A stretch of DNA of 42,841 bases from Microscillaceae bacterium (GTDB lineage: Bacteria > Bacteroidota > Bacteroidia > Cytophagales > Microscillaceae). The translations under genes and the position numbers were made by a program. Position 1 is the stretch's first letter, and every line of letters begins with the position of its first letter. The notes under the pieces were generated by a model that was not told the DNA's origin, did no database searches, and saw nothing but the letters and a program-made list of their open reading frames with translations. The stretch covers positions 1-42,841 of the forward strand of contig JAABSX010000035.1 of assembly GCA_011390205.1 (NCBI GenBank), in the 5' to 3' direction. Below are positions 13,476 through 42,829 of this stretch, piece after piece.

Positions 13476-15404
13476 ATGTGTGGAATTACAGGAATTTATG
13501 CTTACAATGAAGTAGGGCGTTTTCATAGCATCAACCTCAAAAATGCAGTAGATACACTTGGCAGACGTGGCCCTGATGCCAGCAATATGTCATTGCACCA
13601 CATGGTCAATCTAGGGCATGCTCGCCTCTCTATCATAGACCTGAGCCGTGCCGCCAATCAGCCTATGAAAGACGAATCCAAACGCTTTACCATCGTATTT
13701 AATGGAGAAATCTACAATTACCTAAGCATCAAAGCAGAGCTAGAAGAGCAGGGAATCACTTTTCAGACAACTTCGGATACGGAGGTTTTGCTTAAGGGCT
13801 ACATTCATTTCAAAGAAAAAATCTTAGAAAAACTCAATGGTTTTTTTGCTTTTGCCATCTATGATGAGGAAGATAAATCGCTCTTTTTGGCAAGAGACAG
13901 AATGGGCATCAAGCCTTTGCTGATTTATGAAGATGAAAATAAACTCCTTTTTGGCTCTGAAATGAAGGCTTTGCTGGCTTTCGGGATAGACAAAGAGCTC
14001 GATTATGTAAGCCTTAAGCAATACTTACAGCTAAACTACACGCCTGGCACTCGCACTATTTTTAAGAAAGTACGCCGCCTTGCCCCTGGGCATTACCTCA
14101 AAATCAAAGGACGTGAACAAGAGGAAAAGCCCTTTTATCAGATTCCTTTGCCTCAGACAAAGGATAGTGCAGAAAGCCCCAAAAGCTATGAAGCCCAGCA
14201 AAAAAAACTGGTAGAAATCTTAGAAGGTTCTGTGCAGAAGCGGCTCATTGCTGATGTGCCTTTGGGTTCTTTTTTAAGTGGAGGAATTGACTCTTCGGTC
14301 ATCACGGCTTTAGCATCCAGACATACCGAAAAGCTCAATACTTTCTCGATTGGCTACAGAGATGAGCCTTTTTTTGATGAAACCAAGTACGCCAACCTCG
14401 TAGCCAAGAAATTTAACACCAACCATACCGTTTTTTCGCTTTCCAATGCTGATTTGTATGAGCATCTTTTTGAGGTACTAGACTATACCGATGAGCCTTT
14501 TGCAGATTCTTCGGCTTTGGCGGTCTATATCCTCAGCAAACGCACCCGAAAGCAGGTCAAAGTAGCCCTTTCGGGAGATGGAGCCGATGAGCTTTTCTCA
14601 GGCTACAACAAGCACAGTGCAGAATACAGGGCAAGGGAAGGTGGCTGGAAAGCCAATCTCGTAACACAGTTTTTACCACTTTGGCAAAAATTACCCAAGT
14701 CTAGGCAGGGTTTTATTTCTAACAAAGTGCGTCAATTTCAGCGATTTGCCGAAGGGCAGCAACTTACAGAGAAAGAACGCTACTGGAGATGGGCTATTTT
14801 TACGGAAGAACAAAAAGTAAATGATTTGCTACACACCGACATCCGAGCAAAGATTTCTACTGAGGTCTATCAAGAGCGAAAGGAGGGTTTATTGCAATTT
14901 ATTGAAAATATCTCTGACAAATCTCAAGCTTTGAGTCATTTTAATGAGGTGCTTTATACAGATTTGCAGATGGTTTTGGTCAATGATATGCTCACAAAAG
15001 TAGATTTGATGTCTATGGGCAACAGCCTAGAGGTGCGTGTGCCTTTCTTAGACCATGAGCTCGTCAATTATGTCAATGCTTTGCCAGTCTCTAGCAAAAT
15101 CAACGGACAGATGCGTAAGCGAATTTTGCAAGATGCTTTTAGGGAAGTGCTACCTGCCGAGCTTTATCGCCGATCCAAGCATGGTTTTGAAGTGCCTTTG
15201 CTCAAATGGTTTAGGGGAGAATTAAGAAATCTGATAGAAAATGATTTGCTTTCTGATGCATTTATCCAAGAACAGGGAATTTTTGAGGTCAAAGAAATTC
15301 AAAAAATCAAGCAGAAGCTTTTTTCTAACAACCCTGAAGACATCCATGCTCGGGTCTGGGGTTTGATTGTGTTTCAGCACTGGTGGAAGCGGTATTTGGC
15401 TTAA
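13476..15404 (+). CDS. asnB: Glutamine-hydrolysing asparagine synthase
   Basis: 642 residues from the ATG at 13476. This start is chosen because it places the nucleophile Cys at position 2 (MCGITGIYAY), as needed for N-terminal processing of class II amidotransferases; a GTG at 13422 in the same frame would bury it. Glutaminase motifs RRGPDAS, NGEIYNY and SDTEVLLKGY are present. The synthetase half carries the PP-loop SGGIDSS (about 268) and ALSGDGADELFSGY. It converts aspartate, glutamine and ATP to asparagine. At over 600 residues it belongs to the longer AsnB type common in Gram-positives and Bacteroidota, some of which act in surface-sugar or cell-wall amidation; the context gives no hint of that here. 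Confidence 0.93.
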   Translation: MCGITGIYAYNEVGRFHSINLKNAVDTLGRRGPDASNMSLHHMVNLGHARLSIIDLSRAANQPMKDESKRFTIVFNGEIYNYLSIKAELEEQGITFQTTSDTEVLLKGYIHFKEKILEKLNGFFAFAIYDEEDKSLFLARDRMGIKPLLIYEDENKLLFGSEMKALLAFGIDKELDYVSLKQYLQLNYTPGTRTIFKKVRRLAPGHYLKIKGREQEEKPFYQIPLPQTKDSAESPKSYEAQQKKLVEILEGSVQKRLIADVPLGSFLSGGIDSSVITALASRHTEKLNTFSIGYRDEPFFDETKYANLVAKKFNTNHTVFSLSNADLYEHLFEVLDYTDEPFADSSALAVYILSKRTRKQVKVALSGDGADELFSGYNKHSAEYRAREGGWKANLVTQFLPLWQKLPKSRQGFISNKVRQFQRFAEGQQLTEKERYWRWAIFTEEQKVNDLLHTDIRAKISTEVYQERKEGLLQFIENISDKSQALSHFNEVLYTDLQMVLVNDMLTKVDLMSMGNSLEVRVPFLDHELVNYVNALPVSSKINGQMRKRILQDAFREVLPAELYRRSKHGFEVPLLKWFRGELRNLIENDLLSDAFIQEQGIFEVKEIQKIKQKLFSNNPEDIHARVWGLIVFQHWWKRYLA

Positions 15405-22097: not shown

Positions 22098-22230
22098 GTG
22101 CTAACAGCCGTTTTACAAAAGCGGGGGTTCAGTGCTTCTATGAAAGTGAAGTCTAAATTCAGGCTTTGTGCATCTAATGAAGTTTAGTGCTGAAAATCCC
22201 CTCCTTCGTGTAGCTGAGAACCGCTCATAC
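22098..22230 (+). repeat. attC-like imperfect palindrome, site 1
   Basis: A 130-base imperfect palindrome. The left arm (22107-22135: AGCCGTT, then TACAAAAGCGGGGGTT, CAGTGC) matches the reverse complement of the right arm (22187-22225: AGCGGTT, TACACGAAGGAGGGGATT, CAGCAC) apart from small bulges. The centre has the block TCTAATGAAGTTTAGTGCTG that recurs in site 2 at 23288. The form is that of a chromosomal-integron recombination site or related folded element: conserved ends, variable centre, located between short ORFs. Confidence 0.6.
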
Positions 22231-23220: not shown

Positions 23221-23345
23221 AACGCCGTCAGGTAACATCACCCACCCAAAAGTAGCAGTTCAGTGGCTAAATCAAGCCTTGTGCACCTTAATGAAGTTTA
23301 GTGCTAAAATCCTCTCACCTTCACAAAACCTTAATACAGCTAGGT
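23221..23345 (+). repeat. attC-like element, site 2
   Basis: Contains CAGTTCAGTGGCTAAATC, then GTGCACCTTAATGAAGTTTA and GTGCTAAAATCCTCTC. The stretch 23276-23316 aligns with 22163-22205 of site 1 at roughly 37 of 43 positions. It begins 5 bases after the stop of the 106-residue gene and ends abruptly where the truncated minus-strand gene copy (23340-23375) starts, so it is probably a recombination joint. Confidence 0.55.
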
Positions 23346-23375
23346 AGCTCTATTTTCACTAAGTCTATATTTCAT
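23340..23375 (-). pseudogene. 5' fragment of a duplicated small gene
   Basis: On the minus strand an ATG at 23375 reads MKYRLSENRAT then TAG. The intact-looking copy at 26327 reads MRFILRKNRATYSL; the two share spacing, upstream sequence and residues. The reading frame is cut at the edge of attC-like site 2, so only the promoter and first eleven codons survive. Confidence 0.55.
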
Positions 23376-23406
23376 CTCACAAGTAAGTCATCTTTCTTGG
23401 CTTTGG

Positions 23407-23447
23407 ACTATCTTTACGAAAATTAGTTTTTAGACAGACTGACGTTG
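23407..23447. repeat. 41-bp direct repeat, copy 1
   Basis: Bases 23407-23447 are identical to 26358-26398 except for one base (G/A at the 12th position). On the minus strand the repeat is the upstream (probably promoter) region of the small gene family at 23375 and 26327; on the plus strand its end (GACTGACGTTG) abuts the next cassette gene. Confidence 0.8.
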
Positions 23448-23471
23448 TGTGTCGTATTACAAAAACCCAAA

Positions 23472-24578
23472 ATGAACAGAAAAATAAAATTGATTTACCT
23501 AATACTCATATTGACCTTAAATTTTTCTTGCGTTGAGAAAAACCCAACAGAAAAAGAAACTATTAAGTCTGAATTGGCGGCAACTTCAGAAACCGATACC
23601 TTAAAATTTACCTCAGGAATACGTGCTATCTTTCAAGACAGTAAAGGCAATTATTGGTTTGGAAGTCTCCAAGAAGGAGTTGCGGTTTATAATGGGAAAT
23701 CATTCAAGTATTTCACTAGTAATGAAGGACTTTTTGACAACCAAATCCACTCCATCCAAGAAGACAAAGAAGGTGTTATTTGGTTTGACACACAAACTGG
23801 AGTTAGCAGTTACGATGGCACAAGAATTAATAATCGTACAAAAGCAAACAACGAAAATCCGCAAAATTTTTTTCCAAATCAAAGCAATGACGATAAGACA
23901 AGTAAATGGATGAAATCTGACAATGACTTATGGTTTGAAGCTGGAAATAAAGCTGCAGTTTATAGATACGATGGACAACGATTACATTTTTTAGAGCTGC
24001 CTCCTCAAAAAGTCCTTAACCCCTACGATAATTTATTTGCTGTAACTGATATTTCAAAAGGCAAAAACAATATGATTTGGTTTGCCACGTATGCAGGTGT
24101 TTTCGGGTACAATGGAATTGATTTTACAATCATTAATGATGAAACATTAGGATTTGATAGAAAAATTGAACCTTTGCATATACGAAATATTTACGAAGAT
24201 TCTAAAGGTAGGCTTTGGCTTGGGAATAACGGAATTGGCGTGTTACTTAAAGAAGGTGATTCAATCATAAATTTTTCAAAAAAGCATCGCTTGATTGACC
24301 CCAATAGTAAACGAAATGGAGAAAAATCACCTCAAGGCACTCTGGAACACGTTTTTATAATCGCTGAAGACAACAAAGGCAACATTTGGTTTGGAGACAG
24401 AGATGCTGGAATTTGGAAATTCGATGGTAAACAATTTGAAAATTATACCAAAAAAGATGGTTTGACAAATGATTTCGTTCTTTCAATTTACGAAGACAGA
24501 AATAGTGAATTATGGTTTGGTATGGCAGACGGAAACATATATAAATTTAATGGAAAGACTTTTGAAAAGCAATTTTAA
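23472..24578 (+). CDS. Reg_prop beta-propeller lipoprotein
   Basis: 368 residues from the ATG at 23472 (the GTG-like start further up is unlikely because it would spoil the lipoprotein signal). Signal sequence with lipobox LNFSC (Cys about 19), then about seven two-component-regulator-propeller repeats, each with a 'D.KG.IWFG....G...YDG..F' core: WFGSLQEGVAVYNG, IWFDTQTGVSSYDG, LWFEAGNKAAVYRYDG, IWFATYAGVFGYNG, LWLGNNGIGVLL, IWFGDRDAGIWKFDG, LWFGMADGNIYKFNG. In Bacteroidota such propellers normally precede a histidine kinase or cyclase as the periplasmic sensor; here the propeller stands alone with no transmembrane or kinase part, so it is either a free sensor/binding lipoprotein or a cassette-borne fragment with a complete single domain. 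Confidence 0.85.
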   Translation: MNRKIKLIYLILILTLNFSCVEKNPTEKETIKSELAATSETDTLKFTSGIRAIFQDSKGNYWFGSLQEGVAVYNGKSFKYFTSNEGLFDNQIHSIQEDKEGVIWFDTQTGVSSYDGTRINNRTKANNENPQNFFPNQSNDDKTSKWMKSDNDLWFEAGNKAAVYRYDGQRLHFLELPPQKVLNPYDNLFAVTDISKGKNNMIWFATYAGVFGYNGIDFTIINDETLGFDRKIEPLHIRNIYEDSKGRLWLGNNGIGVLLKEGDSIINFSKKHRLIDPNSKRNGEKSPQGTLEHVFIIAEDNKGNIWFGDRDAGIWKFDGKQFENYTKKDGLTNDFVLSIYEDRNSELWFGMADGNIYKFNGKTFEKQF

Positions 24579-24595
24579 GAAATACGAAACTACAA

Positions 24596-24735
24596 TAACA
24601 TGTATAAGAAATAGCGAGTTCAATGCTGAATCAAAGGTCAGTGCTTTTAACAAAAGTGAGTACTAGACTGAAAGTGAAGTGCTTTTTAATCCAGCTCTTC
24701 GCAAACATTCTTCCCTTACCTGTAATTGTAAAGAA
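24596..24735 (+). repeat. attC-like element, site 3
   Basis: The left edge ACATGTATAAGAAATAGCGAG pairs imperfectly with the right edge CTTCGCAAACATTCTTCCC...TGT. The centre has CAGTGCTTTTAACAAAAGTGAG and AAGTGAAGTGCTTTTTAATCC; the latter aligns with CAGTGAAGTGTCTTAAAATCC of site 4. It sits between the propeller gene and the VOC-ABM gene. Confidence 0.5.
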
Positions 24736-24765
24736 CGACCCATTAAAATTGAATAGTAATAAAAA

Positions 24766-25446
24766 ATGAAACAAAATTTGGCGCATATAGCCATTGTAGT
24801 GGATGACTATGATAAGGCAATAGAGTTTTATACACAAAAATTATATTTTGACTTAATCGAAGACACTACTCTTTCGGAATCAAGACGTTGGGTTTTAGTT
24901 AGACCGAAAGGTGCAAACGAATGTTCTTTATTATTAGCCAAAGGAGTAAATGATAAACAAAAATGTAGAATTGGGAACCAAACAGGTGGACGAGTTTTTC
25001 TTTTTTTAAATACTGATAATTTCAAAAGAGACTATCAAAATCTAATAGACAATAATATAAAGATTGTTAGAGAACCAAGTTTTGAAGACTATGGAACAGT
25101 AGCCGTTTTTGAGGATCTATATGGGAATCTTTGGGACTTAATAGAACCAAAAAAAACAGAACAAATATTTTACTCAACAAGAATTTTAAAAATAAAAGAC
25201 ATAATAAATATTGACTTTGCTATTGCTCAGTTAAAAAAATTGAGAAACCAGACACTTTCGGAAATTGGTAATATTTCATTTGACATTAAACAATTGAAAA
25301 ACGACTCGACAAAAATAATTCTTTGGGAATGTTTTGAAAATGAAAAATCATTCAAAGACCATTTAAACTCAAAACATCTCCAAGAGTTTATTAAACTTGA
25401 CTTGGTAGAAATTGAAAATAGTTACATAACAAATAACATTGAATAA
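24766..25446 (+). CDS. VOC domain fused to an antibiotic-monooxygenase-like (ABM) domain
   Basis: 226 residues. Residues 1-128 form a VOC/glyoxalase-like fold: LAHIAIVVDDYDKAIEFYTQ with His7 as first metal ligand, and TVAVFEDLYGNLWDLIEP with the terminal Glu. Residues about 135-222 form a second alpha+beta domain of the dimeric ferredoxin-like ABM type: RNQTLSEIGNISFDI, then ILWECFENEKSFKDHLNSKH, the 'E.w.n...h..s.H' pattern. VOC proteins bind metal and small electrophiles or antibiotics; ABM proteins handle aromatic or quinone substrates. The pair suggests detoxification of one compound class, an inference. It is AT-rich and bounded by attC-like spacers. Confidence 0.75.
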   Translation: MKQNLAHIAIVVDDYDKAIEFYTQKLYFDLIEDTTLSESRRWVLVRPKGANECSLLLAKGVNDKQKCRIGNQTGGRVFLFLNTDNFKRDYQNLIDNNIKIVREPSFEDYGTVAVFEDLYGNLWDLIEPKKTEQIFYSTRILKIKDIINIDFAIAQLKKLRNQTLSEIGNISFDIKQLKNDSTKIILWECFENEKSFKDHLNSKHLQEFIKLDLVEIENSYITNNIE

Positions 25447-25577
25447 ACAACAAACCGCCAACAGTGCTTCAAACCCACTAAGTTAAGTATTTTATTTAGT
25501 ATAGATTTTGATATTCTGTTTTTTTTGAAATAAAATACTATTTTTAACTAAAATACCTTTCAAAAGAACATAGTTCA

Positions 25578-25736
25578 TTATACCATCTTTTTCATTGGCC
25601 TCAAACTTCCTTTCATTATTTCAATGCTATTTTTTCTTATGAAATCAATAGATTCACTACTGTACTTTTCATAATTCTGAGCAGCTTCTCTGAAAAACTT
25701 TCGTAAATCTTTGAAAATTTTATTCCTTACATTCAT
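25578..25736 (-). CDS. Possible small basic protein
   Basis: 52 residues from the ATG at 25736: very basic and helical (NVRNKIFKDLRKFFREAAQN), ending SLRPMKKMV. No family recognised. It would be the only intact minus-strand gene near this point, and composition alone does not prove it. The alternative is an accidental ORF in a spacer. Confidence 0.25.
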   Translation of the reverse strand: MNVRNKIFKDLRKFFREAAQNYEKYSSESIDFIRKNSIEIMKGSLRPMKKMV

Positions 25737-25811
25737 TTTTTTACTATTTTTAGGCGTGGAAATATAGCGCAAACATAGTGATTTTAATTAACTCAATGGG
25801 TATGAACAAAA

Positions 25812-25917
25812 GCTATACGTAATGAGGGCAAAAGTGCTGATATGAAAGTAATTACATTAAATAAACTTTTTGGTAAACGGACAGTGAAGTGTCTTAAAAT
25901 CCGGCACTACGCATAGC
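25812..25917 (+). repeat. attC-like element, site 4, with matching ends
   Basis: GCTATACGTAATG (25812-25824) and CACTACGCATAGC (25905-25917) are inverted copies at 11 of 13 positions and bracket 80 bases containing AGTGCTGATATGAAAGT (compare AGTGCTTCTATGAAAGT in site 1) and GTGAAGTGTCTTAAAATCC (compare site 3). This is the cleanest simple-site/terminal-box arrangement in the array. Confidence 0.6.
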
Positions 25918-26138
25918 CAAAACATCAATCTGTCTAAAAAAACTATTATGAGCCTTCAAGTGCAGGGTGTGTAAGCCCTTTGAAGTACGCACCTTTAGCT
26001 TGAATTACTTTGAAAAGCACAAAATATCTTTGGGATAGAAGTTTAGAATCTGTCATACAGGCTCAAAAAATAGAAAAAAGTGATTTTAGATACTTTTCCA
26101 GTACTTTTGGTACTAATATATTCAAAATTTGGCATAAA

Positions 26139-26327
26139 TTAAAGGCTATCGCCATGGTAGCTAGGTCTGCCATTTTCGCCAAAGTCCATCTTAAAGCCTA
26201 AAGGAGTTAATTCCAAGTTTTCTACAAAAAGGTCTATCCGCCTCAGCACATTGCCGGATGATATGAGTTCATCGAGTGGGGATGTAAGACTATATGTAGC
26301 CCTGTTTTTTCTTAGAATAAATCTCAT
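26139..26327 (-). CDS. Small unknown protein, complete member of duplicated family
   Basis: 62 residues from the ATG at 26327: MRFILRKNRATYSLTSPLDE, later LELTPLGFKMDFGENGRP and YHGDSL at the C-terminus. The composition is protein-like, and a homologous start (MKYRLSENRAT) with the same upstream 41-bp repeat occurs at 23375, which supports it as a real gene with its own promoter. Its direction is opposite to the other genes in the region. The function is unknown; the size would suit an immunity or antitoxin protein, without further evidence. Confidence 0.5.
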   Translation of the reverse strand: MRFILRKNRATYSLTSPLDELISSGNVLRRIDLFVENLELTPLGFKMDFGENGRPSYHGDSL

Positions 26328-26357
26328 TTCATAAGATAGGTGTTTTTTTGATTTTGT

Positions 26358-26398
26358 ACTATCTTTACAAAAATTAGTTTTTAGACAGACTGACGTTG
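26358..26398. repeat. 41-bp direct repeat, copy 2
   Basis: Matches 23407-23447 at 40 of 41 positions. On the minus strand it lies 31 bases before the ATG at 26327 (32 bases in copy 1) and includes TAATTTTTGTAAAGATAG, which resembles a Bacteroidota -7 region, so it probably carries the promoter of the small gene. Confidence 0.8.
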
Positions 26399-26409: not shown

Positions 26410-26901
26410 ATGACGACACAACAAACAGAAATGACGACTATAAAGTATAAAGACTGGGAGTTCATAGTGGACAAAAAACTCACTAAACAGACTTACGAAA
26501 AAGTTGAAATTGGTGGAGCAGAAAGCTGTACTTGTAACAACTGTAAGAACTTTACTAGCAATAGAGAAAATATATATCCACAAGAAACTAAAGAATTACT
26601 GACAAGCTTAGGAATCGATTACCGCAAAGAATGTGAAGTTTGGCATTATTGTAAAGACGAATTTGGAAGACATTATTATAGTGGTTGGTTTCATTTTAAA
26701 GGGAAATTCAAAGGAAAAAGTCTTTCTGCACCGACACCTGATACGCCTTTTACTTATGACTTGACACCAATTACTGACACATTCAGCCTAGGTTTTCTTT
26801 ATGACAGTTCACTAACATTTTTTGAGGACAAAGAGAATTTGGTTCAAGTTGAGTTTGACACTAAAACAACTTGGACAATTGATGAAGATGAAAGTAAATG
26901 A
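26410..26901 (+). CDS. Cys-containing conserved hypothetical protein
   Basis: 163 residues, ATG at 26410 (a second ATG eight codons later is possible). The N-terminal half has CTCNNCKNF (about 40-48), then YPQETKELLTSLGIDYRKE and VWHYC. The signature 'C-x-C-x2-C-x-N-F ... YP ... LL..LGID' followed by a G-W-F-H-F strand (YYSGWFHFKGKF) recalls a small family of unknown function found across several phyla, often encoded singly. The Cys cluster could bind zinc. It is the last plus-strand gene of the cassette-like region; the 41-bp repeat copy 2 is immediately upstream. Confidence 0.65.
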   Translation: MTTQQTEMTTIKYKDWEFIVDKKLTKQTYEKVEIGGAESCTCNNCKNFTSNRENIYPQETKELLTSLGIDYRKECEVWHYCKDEFGRHYYSGWFHFKGKFKGKSLSAPTPDTPFTYDLTPITDTFSLGFLYDSSLTFFEDKENLVQVEFDTKTTWTIDEDESK

Positions 26902-40942: not shown

Positions 40943-42829
40943 ATGGACAAAAAACAGCTTTTACAAAAAATACAAAATCTTGATAGCCTCTCGCAAGAAG
41001 AAAAAACGCATCTTGCCAACTTGCTCAATACCTCCAAAAAATATGGACTCGTCTGGGAAGATAAACCCGAAGAAGTAGAAGAACTCCTCCGCTCGCAACT
41101 GCCCATACTCCAAGAAGTAAAAGAAAAAAGAATTATAGGCAAGGATATTCCTCCCATAGAAAAACCTATAAAAAAGGAAGAAGGAACACAAATGCCTCTC
41201 CTAGCAGAAGATAAAGCAGCCTATAAAAAAGAAAGCACCAAGCCAAACGAAAAAAAACAAAACCCCAATCACCTACTCATAGAAGGCGATAACCTGCACG
41301 CACTCACCGCCCTCAGCTTTACGCACAAAGAGAAAATTGATGTGATTTATATTGACCCGCCTTACAATACAGGCAACAAAGATTTTAAATACAATGACCG
41401 TTTTGTGGACAAAGAGGACAGCTACAGACACTCAAAATGGCTCTCTTTTATGCAGAAAAGACTCAAAATAGCCTACTCCCTACTCAAAGATACTGGAGTG
41501 ATTTTTATCTCTATTGATGACAACGAACAAGCTCCCCTCAAACTCCTCTGTGATGAAATTTTTGGAGAAGAGAATTTTATCTCAAACATTATTTGGCAAA
41601 GGGCTTTTTCTCCTATTAATTTAAAAAAGACCATTTCTCAAAACCACGATTTTATACTCGCATATTGTAAACAAGATTTTGCAAATTTTGAATTAAATAA
41701 ACTCCCAAGAAGTCTTGAAGCCACAGATAGATACAAAAACCCTGATAATGATGTGAGAGGAGTTTGGACTTCTGGAGATTTATCTGTTGGTCCTGCGATT
41801 GAAAAAAATATTTATCCAATAACCACACCTTCGGGAAAAGTTATCTTGCCACCAAATGGAAGGTCTTGGGTTTTGAATAAAGATAGATTCGAAGAGTTTT
41901 TACAAGACAATAGAGTTTGGTTTGGCTCTAAGGGAGATAATGTGCCACGAATTAAGCGATTTCTATCAGATGTCAGAGATGGTGTTGTGGCACTGTCATT
42001 GTGGACTCACAGTGAAGTAGGACACACGCAAGACGGCAAAAAAGAACTGAAAAATATATTTCCAGAAACACTGAATCCTTTTGAAACAGTAAAGCCTTTA
42101 AAATTAATCAATCGTATTTTAAAACTATCCTCTCAAAAAGATTCTATCATATTAGACTTCTTCGCAGGCAGTGGCACAACGCTGCATGCGGTCATGGAAT
42201 TAAACCAAGAAGACGGAGGCAATCGGCAGTGTATTTTAGTTACCAACAATGAGAACAACATCTGTGAGGAGGTAACCTACGAGCGCAACCGAAAAGTGAT
42301 AGAGGGCTATACCAATGCCAAAGGCGAGGCGGTGCAGGGCTTAGGGGGCAATAATTTGCGGTATTATAGGTGTGGCTATGTGCCACGCAATACGGGGATT
42401 GCTGCCAAAAAAGAACTTACCTACAGGGCTACGGAGCTACTTTGCATCAAAGAAGATTGCTATACCGAGCTTACGGCAGATTATACTGAGCAGGCACCCG
42501 ATGCCGCAACATGGATACGCATTTTTGCCGAAGCCGATAGGCAGTTTATGGTTATCTATGATGATTTGCAGATAGAAGAAAGCCTTGAGATGATTCGGGC
42601 ATTTCAGGCAAACAAGCAGAACGATGCCCTCATCAAAATCTATGTGTTTAGCAATGGTCAGTATCCTTACGAAGATGACTTTGAGGAAGTAACACAATGG
42701 ATAGAACTCTGTGCCTTGCCCGATGCCATCTACAAAGCCTACCAAGAAATACTCCCTAATACAGAAAGCGATGGAGTCGCTTCGAGCGACCCCATCGCTA
42801 GTCCAAATCAACAAAACCTACTATTCTAA
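40943..42829 (+). CDS. mod: Type III-like site-specific DNA methyltransferase (Mod), adenine type
   Basis: 628 residues. Helical N-terminal region (1-110, like Mod subunits), then IEGDNLHALTAL and VIYIDPPYNTG (motif IV DPPY, Asp138), the target-recognition region (about 210-370), and the AdoMet motif I FFAGSGTTLHAVMEL (from Phe407) after it; this order is the beta class typical of type III Mod enzymes. It methylates adenine in a target sequence set by the central domain. The C-terminus SDGVASSDPIAS is encoded by a perfect-like palindrome (42767-42799, listed), unusual for the family. ATG 42836 just after the stop may begin the res gene, cut off by the window edge, so restriction activity cannot be judged. 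Confidence 0.9.
   Translation: MDKKQLLQKIQNLDSLSQEEKTHLANLLNTSKKYGLVWEDKPEEVEELLRSQLPILQEVKEKRIIGKDIPPIEKPIKKEEGTQMPLLAEDKAAYKKESTKPNEKKQNPNHLLIEGDNLHALTALSFTHKEKIDVIYIDPPYNTGNKDFKYNDRFVDKEDSYRHSKWLSFMQKRLKIAYSLLKDTGVIFISIDDNEQAPLKLLCDEIFGEENFISNIIWQRAFSPINLKKTISQNHDFILAYCKQDFANFELNKLPRSLEATDRYKNPDNDVRGVWTSGDLSVGPAIEKNIYPITTPSGKVILPPNGRSWVLNKDRFEEFLQDNRVWFGSKGDNVPRIKRFLSDVRDGVVALSLWTHSEVGHTQDGKKELKNIFPETLNPFETVKPLKLINRILKLSSQKDSIILDFFAGSGTTLHAVMELNQEDGGNRQCILVTNNENNICEEVTYERNRKVIEGYTNAKGEAVQGLGGNNLRYYRCGYVPRNTGIAAKKELTYRATELLCIKEDCYTELTADYTEQAPDAATWIRIFAEADRQFMVIYDDLQIEESLEMIRAFQANKQNDALIKIYVFSNGQYPYEDDFEEVTQWIELCALPDAIYKAYQEILPNTESDGVASSDPIASPNQQNLLF
42767..42799. repeat. In-frame palindromic element inside mod
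   Basis: AGCGATGGAGTCGCT (42767-42781) and AGCGACCCCATCGCT (42785-42799) are inverted copies at 14 of 15 positions with a 3-base loop. It is translated as SDGVASSDPIAS near the end of the methyltransferase, 10 residues before the stop. Confidence 0.75.

Follow-up and report, generated by a model that had tools for sequence, protein, structure and literature searches.

Probable remnants of an IS1182-family insertion sequence, from a lineage frequently docked at attC-like cassette sites, in a Microscillaceae bacterium

Integron integrases act on attC sites as folded single strands. Miniature inverted-repeat transposable elements (MITEs) are non-autonomous mini-elements that keep their ends, have lost the transposase interior and are present in many copies per genome. 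Here we describe two related sequences, a short and a long copy, that lie near attC-like sites in a stretch of 42,841 nucleotides from a Microscillaceae bacterium of the Bacteroidota (positions 1 to 42,841 of contig JAABSX010000035.1, assembly GCA_011390205.1; the whole stretch is called the window) and that are remnants of an insertion sequence of the IS1182 family. Within that family, IS1272 and TnSha1 of staphylococci target hairpins rather than a fixed sequence, delete the stem-loop and produce no target duplication, according to the available portions of two reports (PMC5678879, PMC4923244). Docking at one end of attC sites is described for insertion sequences of the IS1111-attC group, ISKpn4 and ISPst6 among them, in the accessible part of PMC11187229. 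Other palindromic repeats are the subject of PMC3733652. For Bacteroidota, the portion of PMC9024848 available to us reports that IntegronFinder had earlier yielded only In0, to which one complete integron, in Salinibacter ruber, was added.

The two copies were confirmed by a within-window repeat comparison, in which 23393-23447 and 26344-26398 are 91% identical over 55 nt and share a 41-bp core (23407-23447 and 26358-26398) with a single base difference. Each core precedes one of two homologous starts on the minus strand. In the short copy, MKYRLSENRAT is followed by a stop (23375-23340), and in the long copy the frame, MRFILRKNRATYSL, runs for 62 codons (26327-26139); the list of open reading frames (ORFs) prolongs the latter upstream to a GTG at 26483. 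The original prediction had correctly described the repeat with its one mismatch and the homologous starts behind it. It gave the spacing from repeat to start as 32 and 31 bases; the distances are indeed nearly equal, the actual values being 31 bases in the short copy and 30 bases in the long copy. A whole-genome search aligned the short copy to the long copy over 107 bases (79% identity, E 1.5e-17). A chance repeat was rejected on the strength of this match and of a third copy elsewhere in the genome, on contig C73.

The pair had been taken for a duplicated small gene. Instead, the 62-residue frame matched NF033551, the NCBIfam profile for IS1182 transposases, over profile positions 3-54 (E 6.6e-5), with 22 bits against a curated cut-off of 270 bits, as would be expected of a fragment. 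Pfam gave no match to this frame at E 0.1. In the third copy (C73:25561-25796, 92% identity, E 3.1e-95) the frame is 286 aa long, and its 260 aa from the corresponding ATG match NF033551 with E 2.1e-50 (172 bits). Full-length relatives in public genomes, other Bacteroidota among them, score above the curated cut-off (339.5 bits for L031, 324.2 for L040 of Pedobacter puniceum and 339.4 for L066), and the L031 and L040 transposases have DDE domains (Pfam DUF772, DDE_Tnp_1_6 and DDE_Tnp_1). The long copy has inverted ends, with 90% identity over 20 nt between 25921-25940 and 26378-26397, a figure that includes 5 flanking bases per side; terminal inverted repeats were also found in the relatives, as CARACTGTCTAAAAAC-like sequence and its inverse at the two ends. 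Because the frame matches IS1182 and goes on in the third copy, and because the long copy has inverted ends, the small-gene reading falls. The 62-codon frame is the N-terminus of an IS1182 transposase, and the 41-bp repeat is the transposase-side end of an IS1182-family element. The window pair is two remnants of such an insertion sequence, not a duplicated cellular gene. The original prediction had named repeats of a mobile element family as an explanation that would refute it, and such a family is what the searches found. Some other kind of small conserved gene was also considered and rejected, Pfam being silent and NCBIfam giving IS1182.

One member of the pair was rightly predicted to be truncated: the short copy keeps one end and about 100 bases. 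With the copy on C73, the genome holds three copies, two of them in the window. The only NF033551 match in the assembly covers profile positions 8-283 of 488 and is ended by another element, and the window copies are therefore remnants. The element that ends this longest transposase copy (L010:6410-6694, on C73) is a second, different one, with a 90-aa minus-strand frame that is open at the contig end. The search for further copies also gave 18 DNA matches in a sister genome of the same family (G001). The G001 stretches examined contained 16 two-ended elements, fourteen of 322-339 bp and two of 199 bp; the larger mini-elements retain their ends and about 45 transposase codons, and the two of 199 bp have no coding start. 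Weak DNA matches at L004, L005 (E 1.3e-5) and L013 (E 5.5e-4) were not used as evidence.

Sites resembling attC were modeled from the flanks of these elements. A first alignment (A1) of 20 element flanks, 13 from G001, 1 from the window and 6 from other genomes, gave a profile that led to further sites. A covariance model (R1) was built from 25 sites, 17 beside an element end and 8 not, and it leans towards docked sites. In the site stem, changes were seen on both sides in 8 of 9 pairs, the covariation score was 0.464 compared to 0.161 when shuffled, and 88% of cells were paired compared to 71% when shuffled and at most 48% when slid; these values call for caution, as the stem structure was derived from the same alignment as the covariation test. 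R1 gave 29 matches at E 0.01 or better in the 4.0 Mb of G001, and sites in 11 of the 15 genomes of the window's own family at E 0.001. Cassette sites are more widespread than the IS1182 element: R1 matched 71 of 148 Bacteroidota genomes (own included) in 46 of 83 genera at E 1e-8, often several times per contig, and the L031 transposase at E 1e-40 matched 8 of 395, own genome included. A search of the own genome for integron integrase (TIGR02249) returned four rows below the cut-off, the best with 75.8 bits against 265, and all 14 controls matched likewise; we take these matches to be Xer-like recombinases, which is a label only. In the own family, 0 of 15 genomes gave an integron integrase at E 1e-40, a search whose controls were silent and which is hence uninformative.

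Two-ended elements frequently lie in exact register with these sites. In 25 of 36, the last base of an R1 site directly adjoins an element end (0-bp register), as seen for 12 of 16 elements in G001, 12 of 19 in other genomes and the single one in the window. Ten of the 25 docked sites lie outside the set from which R1 was built (L043, L064, L066, L071, L072, L075, three in L058, and L062:6578); four of these ten (L058, L062) were in A1, and six were in neither R1 nor A1. One end-only docked case, L062:13638, is also outside the R1 set, though in A1. The register of the 12 G001 elements is far beyond chance, with well below 0.01 expected on a rough estimate made without a shuffled control. Orientation was uniform in G001: each of the 12 docked mini-elements faces the site with the end distant from its transposase start (two-sided p 0.0005, given independent insertions). 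The long copy in the window is oriented as these are. In other genomes, the end on the site is the transposase-start end in 7 cases and the opposite end in 5 (L040, L066, L071, L075 and L072).

The 36 elements do not include loci at which an end or flank is missing or unrecognized, namely L010, L035, L037, L042, L044, L065, L067 (the same place as L010), L069, L070, L073, L074, three one-ended pieces in L062 and the short copy of the window. At L035, L037 and L062:13637, all outside the 36, the visible end abuts a site. A further set of matches (L046-L049 and L051-L054, 30-55% identity over the best stretch, none in the main clade) lacked R1 sites at E 0.1; the end scan, which covered all of them but L046, did not locate element ends reliably. 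A transposase tree was made after L067, L071 and L075 had been dropped as repeats of others, and L050 and L053 for having fewer than 150 residues. On this tree the docking label needs 7 changes, and only 6 of 500 label shuffles were as low. All 12 docked rows fall inside a poorly supported 25-row part; ten belong to a clade of 19 rows (99/95), in which the other 9 have no site. Docking is clustered on the tree, and a single origin is not supported.

Element-free sites were tallied for comparison with occupied ones. Of 48 such sites, 40 came from 107 tallied R1 matches, mostly from the top of the list and with the docked ones of G001 left out, and 8 came from loci in hand. NCGTT was present within a few bases of the predicted end in 33 of the 48, the first base being A in 16, C in 15 and T in 2, and a purine follows GTT in 32 of these 33 cores. 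The core is NCGTTR; GTTRRRY fits only two of the 33. A recognizable element end was seen beside none of the 48 empty sites. On the basis of these tallies, an empty locus mostly reads site-NCGTTR-gene, broken as NCGT|TR where elements sit, and an occupied locus mostly reads site-NCGT, element, NCGTTR-gene.

Taken together, these results make it very probable that the pair is what is left of an insertion sequence from an IS1182 lineage for which the 3' foot of attC-like cassette sites is a frequent docking place. Several observations weigh against this. In 11 of the 36 two-ended elements, neither end adjoins an R1 site. Five of the eleven (L031, L032, L034, L045 and L050) still have one flank of the NCGTTR type, and two lie beside or in other palindromes, L041 adjoining a strong hairpin (z -6.35) and L068 inside an inverted repeat (by eye); the other four (L057, L058_12583, L059_10479 and L061) fit no category. 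The tree rows of the L042 and L043 transposases are identical, and only L043 has a site. A complete IS1182 transposase was not found in the own assembly, which comprises 124 contigs and may miss a copy. Single-strand folding of nine sites was clearly better than shuffles at L033 (z -2.2), L066 (z -4.0) and L080 (z -3.9); it was not clearly better in the other six, which are L040, L056 and all four window sites (z -1.13, 0.44, -0.24 and 0.21 for sites 1 to 4). Finally, the 4-mers flanking the elements are equal in 13 of the 25 docked cases and in 18 of all 36, and unrelated empty sites agree at the first base in a fraction of 0.445, a rough yardstick pooled over genomes. Agreement is thus close to the chance rate, and a plain 4-bp duplication fails to explain the flanks. 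Where the flanks of docked elements disagree (12 cases), the difference is confined to the first base in 8 and is of another kind in L055_9909, L058_8525, L060 and the window; later cassette exchange, replacement between two cores, or carry-over of donor flanks would explain such differences. Strict site specificity was rejected, given the 11 site-less elements and the different surroundings of L042 and L043. The lineage strongly favors the 3' foot of attC-like sites without being confined to it.

The stop in the short copy had been read as an exact cut, made where recombination inside a gene created a junction with a cassette site. In four G001 copies (L058_6229, 8525, 12583 and 13857), TTAG occupies the same alignment columns, and the homology of these copies extends beyond it. 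The transposase frame of L058_6229 reads RAT*HLADPLEAL, with the stop as an asterisk, and the same copy has a one-base deletion further upstream. Because sister copies carry TAG at the same codon and homology continues beyond it, the stop was not made by a cassette junction; it is decay of a mini-element. Nothing in the data shows recombination of the integrase type within a gene. The short copy was also said to end where site 2 begins. Its truncation does lie within about 10 bases of an attC-like site, its homology to the element ending at about 23341 and the model match of site 2 ending at 23331, but site 2 ends there and does not begin. The order of site 2, element interior, transposase-side end and next gene would be the expected remainder after deletion of the right half from an element that had docked at site 2.

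The likely mechanism of this docking is hairpin-guided transposition. An intact transposase, encoded by a full-length copy now lost or broken in the own genome, would have been the source of activity. It would recognize the cassette site as a folded hairpin, a step we infer by analogy with IS1272 of the same family, and would join the element ends at NCGT, which would act as an added sequence preference. Deleted derivatives, such as the 467-bp long copy and the mini-copies of G001, would be moved in trans. At the short copy, a deletion may then have taken away both the right half of the element and the last bases of site 2. On the simplest account, the lineage reads folded DNA and attC-like sites, as common strong hairpins in these genomes, would be frequent targets. 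An inverted repeat or hairpin as the target is suggested by association only, from the 25 of 36 elements at sites with a covarying stem together with L041 and L068 at palindromes.

How the flanks arose can be explained in two ways, both of them variants within the element reading and not alternatives to the element itself. We tentatively entertain that insertion duplicates the 4-bp NCGT and that later cassette recombination swaps one flank. The element end, GTCARNC, still resembles a cassette start, and the three copies in genome G357, with equal transposase scores, all have ACGT/ACGT flanks, as young insertions should. The first base alone accounts for the difference in 8 of the 12 docked elements whose flanks disagree, and at this base empty sites have A or C about equally. 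However, the cassette recombinase search in the own genome gave nothing beyond the sub-cut-off TIGR02249 matches, and carry-over of a donor flank in a circular intermediate would look alike. The empty sites counted are mostly from the window's family and not from relatives of G357, and sites with only A there would weaken the argument from equal flanks. It is more doubtful that the hairpin is replaced as by IS1272, with the stem-loop removed, no target duplication and flanks of different origin. This variant has the IS1272 precedent, and it accords with the near-chance agreement of flanking 4-mers in docked cases. It also accords with L050, where the left flank is the start of the site's 5' arm (GCTAACAGCCGT), the right flank is the cassette start and the hairpin is missing (by eye). 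At the 25 docked elements, however, the site still stands beside the element, so that hairpin was not replaced. The L050 element itself (L050:3892-4437) is 546 bp long.

It is unlikely, though worth stating, that a DDE insertion sequence lineage has specialized on integron-like cassette sites in Bacteroidota as a passenger, docking so that the hairpin and GTCARNC survive. Were this true, the site would stay usable and cassettes would turn over beside the element, and agreement between flanking 4-mers would for that reason stay near the chance level; the element would ride the cassette system rather than break it. We consider it highly improbable that docking is a by-product of elements being tolerated only between genes, where the spacers are mostly cassette sites. 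Genes are closely packed in the window's array, but tolerance alone predicts scatter along spacers and both orientations, and not the base-exact register with the site's 3' end that 25 of 36 elements have or the single orientation in G001. Scarcely credible is a duplicated small cassette gene with one copy cut at site 2 by cassette recombination, since the nearness of the short-copy end to an attC-like site and the decayed, core-like CCTTA found there are outweighed by a frame that is an IS1182 transposase N-terminus and longer in the C73 copy, by the inverted ends of the long copy and by the TAG in sister copies whose homology passes it.

If docking of this IS1182 lineage does follow the hairpin, a second, unrelated enzyme family picking such hairpins would be independent evidence that the sites fold in cells. 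The insertions would also mark cassette arrays in a phylum with very few IntegronFinder integrons. For annotation, the warning is that a small conserved frame at the boundary of a cassette may be the stub of a transposase and not a gene. The claim to novelty is a modest one: in Bacteroidota, a lineage of IS1182 elements strongly prefers the 3' foot of attC-like sites. Hairpin-guided IS1182 elements (IS1272) and docking at attC by IS1111-attC elements were already known, and their combination is unreported in the literature found. A literature search, with subscription journals mostly outside it, found no work joining IS1182 elements with attC sites; in the accessible portions of papers that contain both terms the two are unrelated, and some instances of "attc" are not an integron site.

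The features of the window are listed in Table 1. For the propeller gene that adjoins the short copy, the ATG at 23472 is the likelier start compared to the TTG at 23445 given in the ORF list. At the window end, 40943-42829 encodes a type III DNA methyltransferase (PADLOC MTase_III, E 2.8e-119). PADLOC gave no match at E 0.001 for eight small genes of the window's array.

Further loci were noted in other genomes. A short contig of G001 (C13, L062; 19 kb) has two two-ended mini-elements and two pieces with only the transposase-side end among cassette sites, and at 13637 it has one end of a different IS1182-like element. In G357, each of two full-length IS1182 copies is docked at a cassette site of its own, about 0.7 kb from the other copy (C1:1366909-1370808), and a third docked copy is found at 5206860. 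L039 has a second, very divergent IS1182-type transposase frame (L039:2190-3656, 24% identity to L031), immediately upstream of the docked frame. The element and cassette sites are also present at L036, in a metagenome-assembled genome of Candidatus Tenebribacter mawsonii whose bin is shown as Cloacimonadota and not Bacteroidota; this placement reflects either transfer or a binning error.

Table 1. Positions of the IS1182-family copies, attC-like sites and adjoining genes in the window.
Feature	Position	Strand	Basis
Internally deleted (MITE-like) IS1182-family element, 467 bp, both ends (long copy)	25926..26392	-	Inverted repeat; both ends align with 331-bp G001 copies
Truncated IS1182 transposase N-terminus, 62 codons	26139..26327	-	NF033551
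Truncated copy, transposase-side end only, right half gone (short copy)	23341..23441	-	Matches long copy over 23341-23447
Site-side flanking 4-mer of long copy, ACAT	25922..25925	+	Read from sequence
Gene-side flanking 4-mer of long copy, ACGT; next cassette begins ACGTTGG	26393..26396	+	Read from sequence
Gene-side flanking 4-mer of short copy, ACGT (ACGTTGTG)	23442..23445	+	Read from sequence
attC-like site 1, without element	22100..22224	+	R1 103.7 bits; used in building R1
attC-like site 2, decayed, upstream of short copy	23231..23331	+	R1 29.9 bits, E 7.2e-5; not in R1 set
attC-like site 3, without element	24594..24708	+	R1 43.1 bits, E 5e-8; not in R1 set
attC-like site 4, 3' end directly beside right end of long copy	25802..25925	+	R1 81.0 bits; in R1 set
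Gene adjoining long copy, 163 aa, without Pfam match at E 0.1	26410..26901	+	ORF list, Pfam
Gene adjoining short copy, two-component-regulator-propeller repeats	23472..24578	+	ORF list; PF07494 E 3.2e-27

Compared to the systems described, the lineage shares features with two groups of insertion sequences, as far as the available parts of their reports go. Like IS1272 and TnSha1, it has a transposase of the IS1182 family and is found at hairpin targets, and L050 is one replacement-like case. IS1272 is reported to remove the stem-loop, whereas all 25 docked cases here still have the site; in addition, the break falls at NCGT and the hairpins belong to the cassette type. Like the IS1111-attC group, it is an insertion sequence lineage found at one end of cassette attC sites. 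That group uses a DEDD transposase of the IS110/IS1111 type and an RNA guide (seekRNA), whereas the transposase here is a DDE enzyme of the IS1182 family and the inverted ends are ordinary; the lineage resembles that group in how it works but does not belong to it. The sites themselves resemble integron attC sites and clusters of attC sites lacking integron integrases (CALIN) in having a covarying hairpin of about 127 nt beside small genes, with GTT in the 3' core. They differ in that core, which is NCGTTR rather than GTTRRRY, and no integron integrase above the cut-off was found in the own genome. As with MITEs, short copies with both ends and no transposase interior are numerous in one genome. 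Unlike MITEs, the docked copies of G001 lie at cassette sites in one orientation, 12 out of 12.

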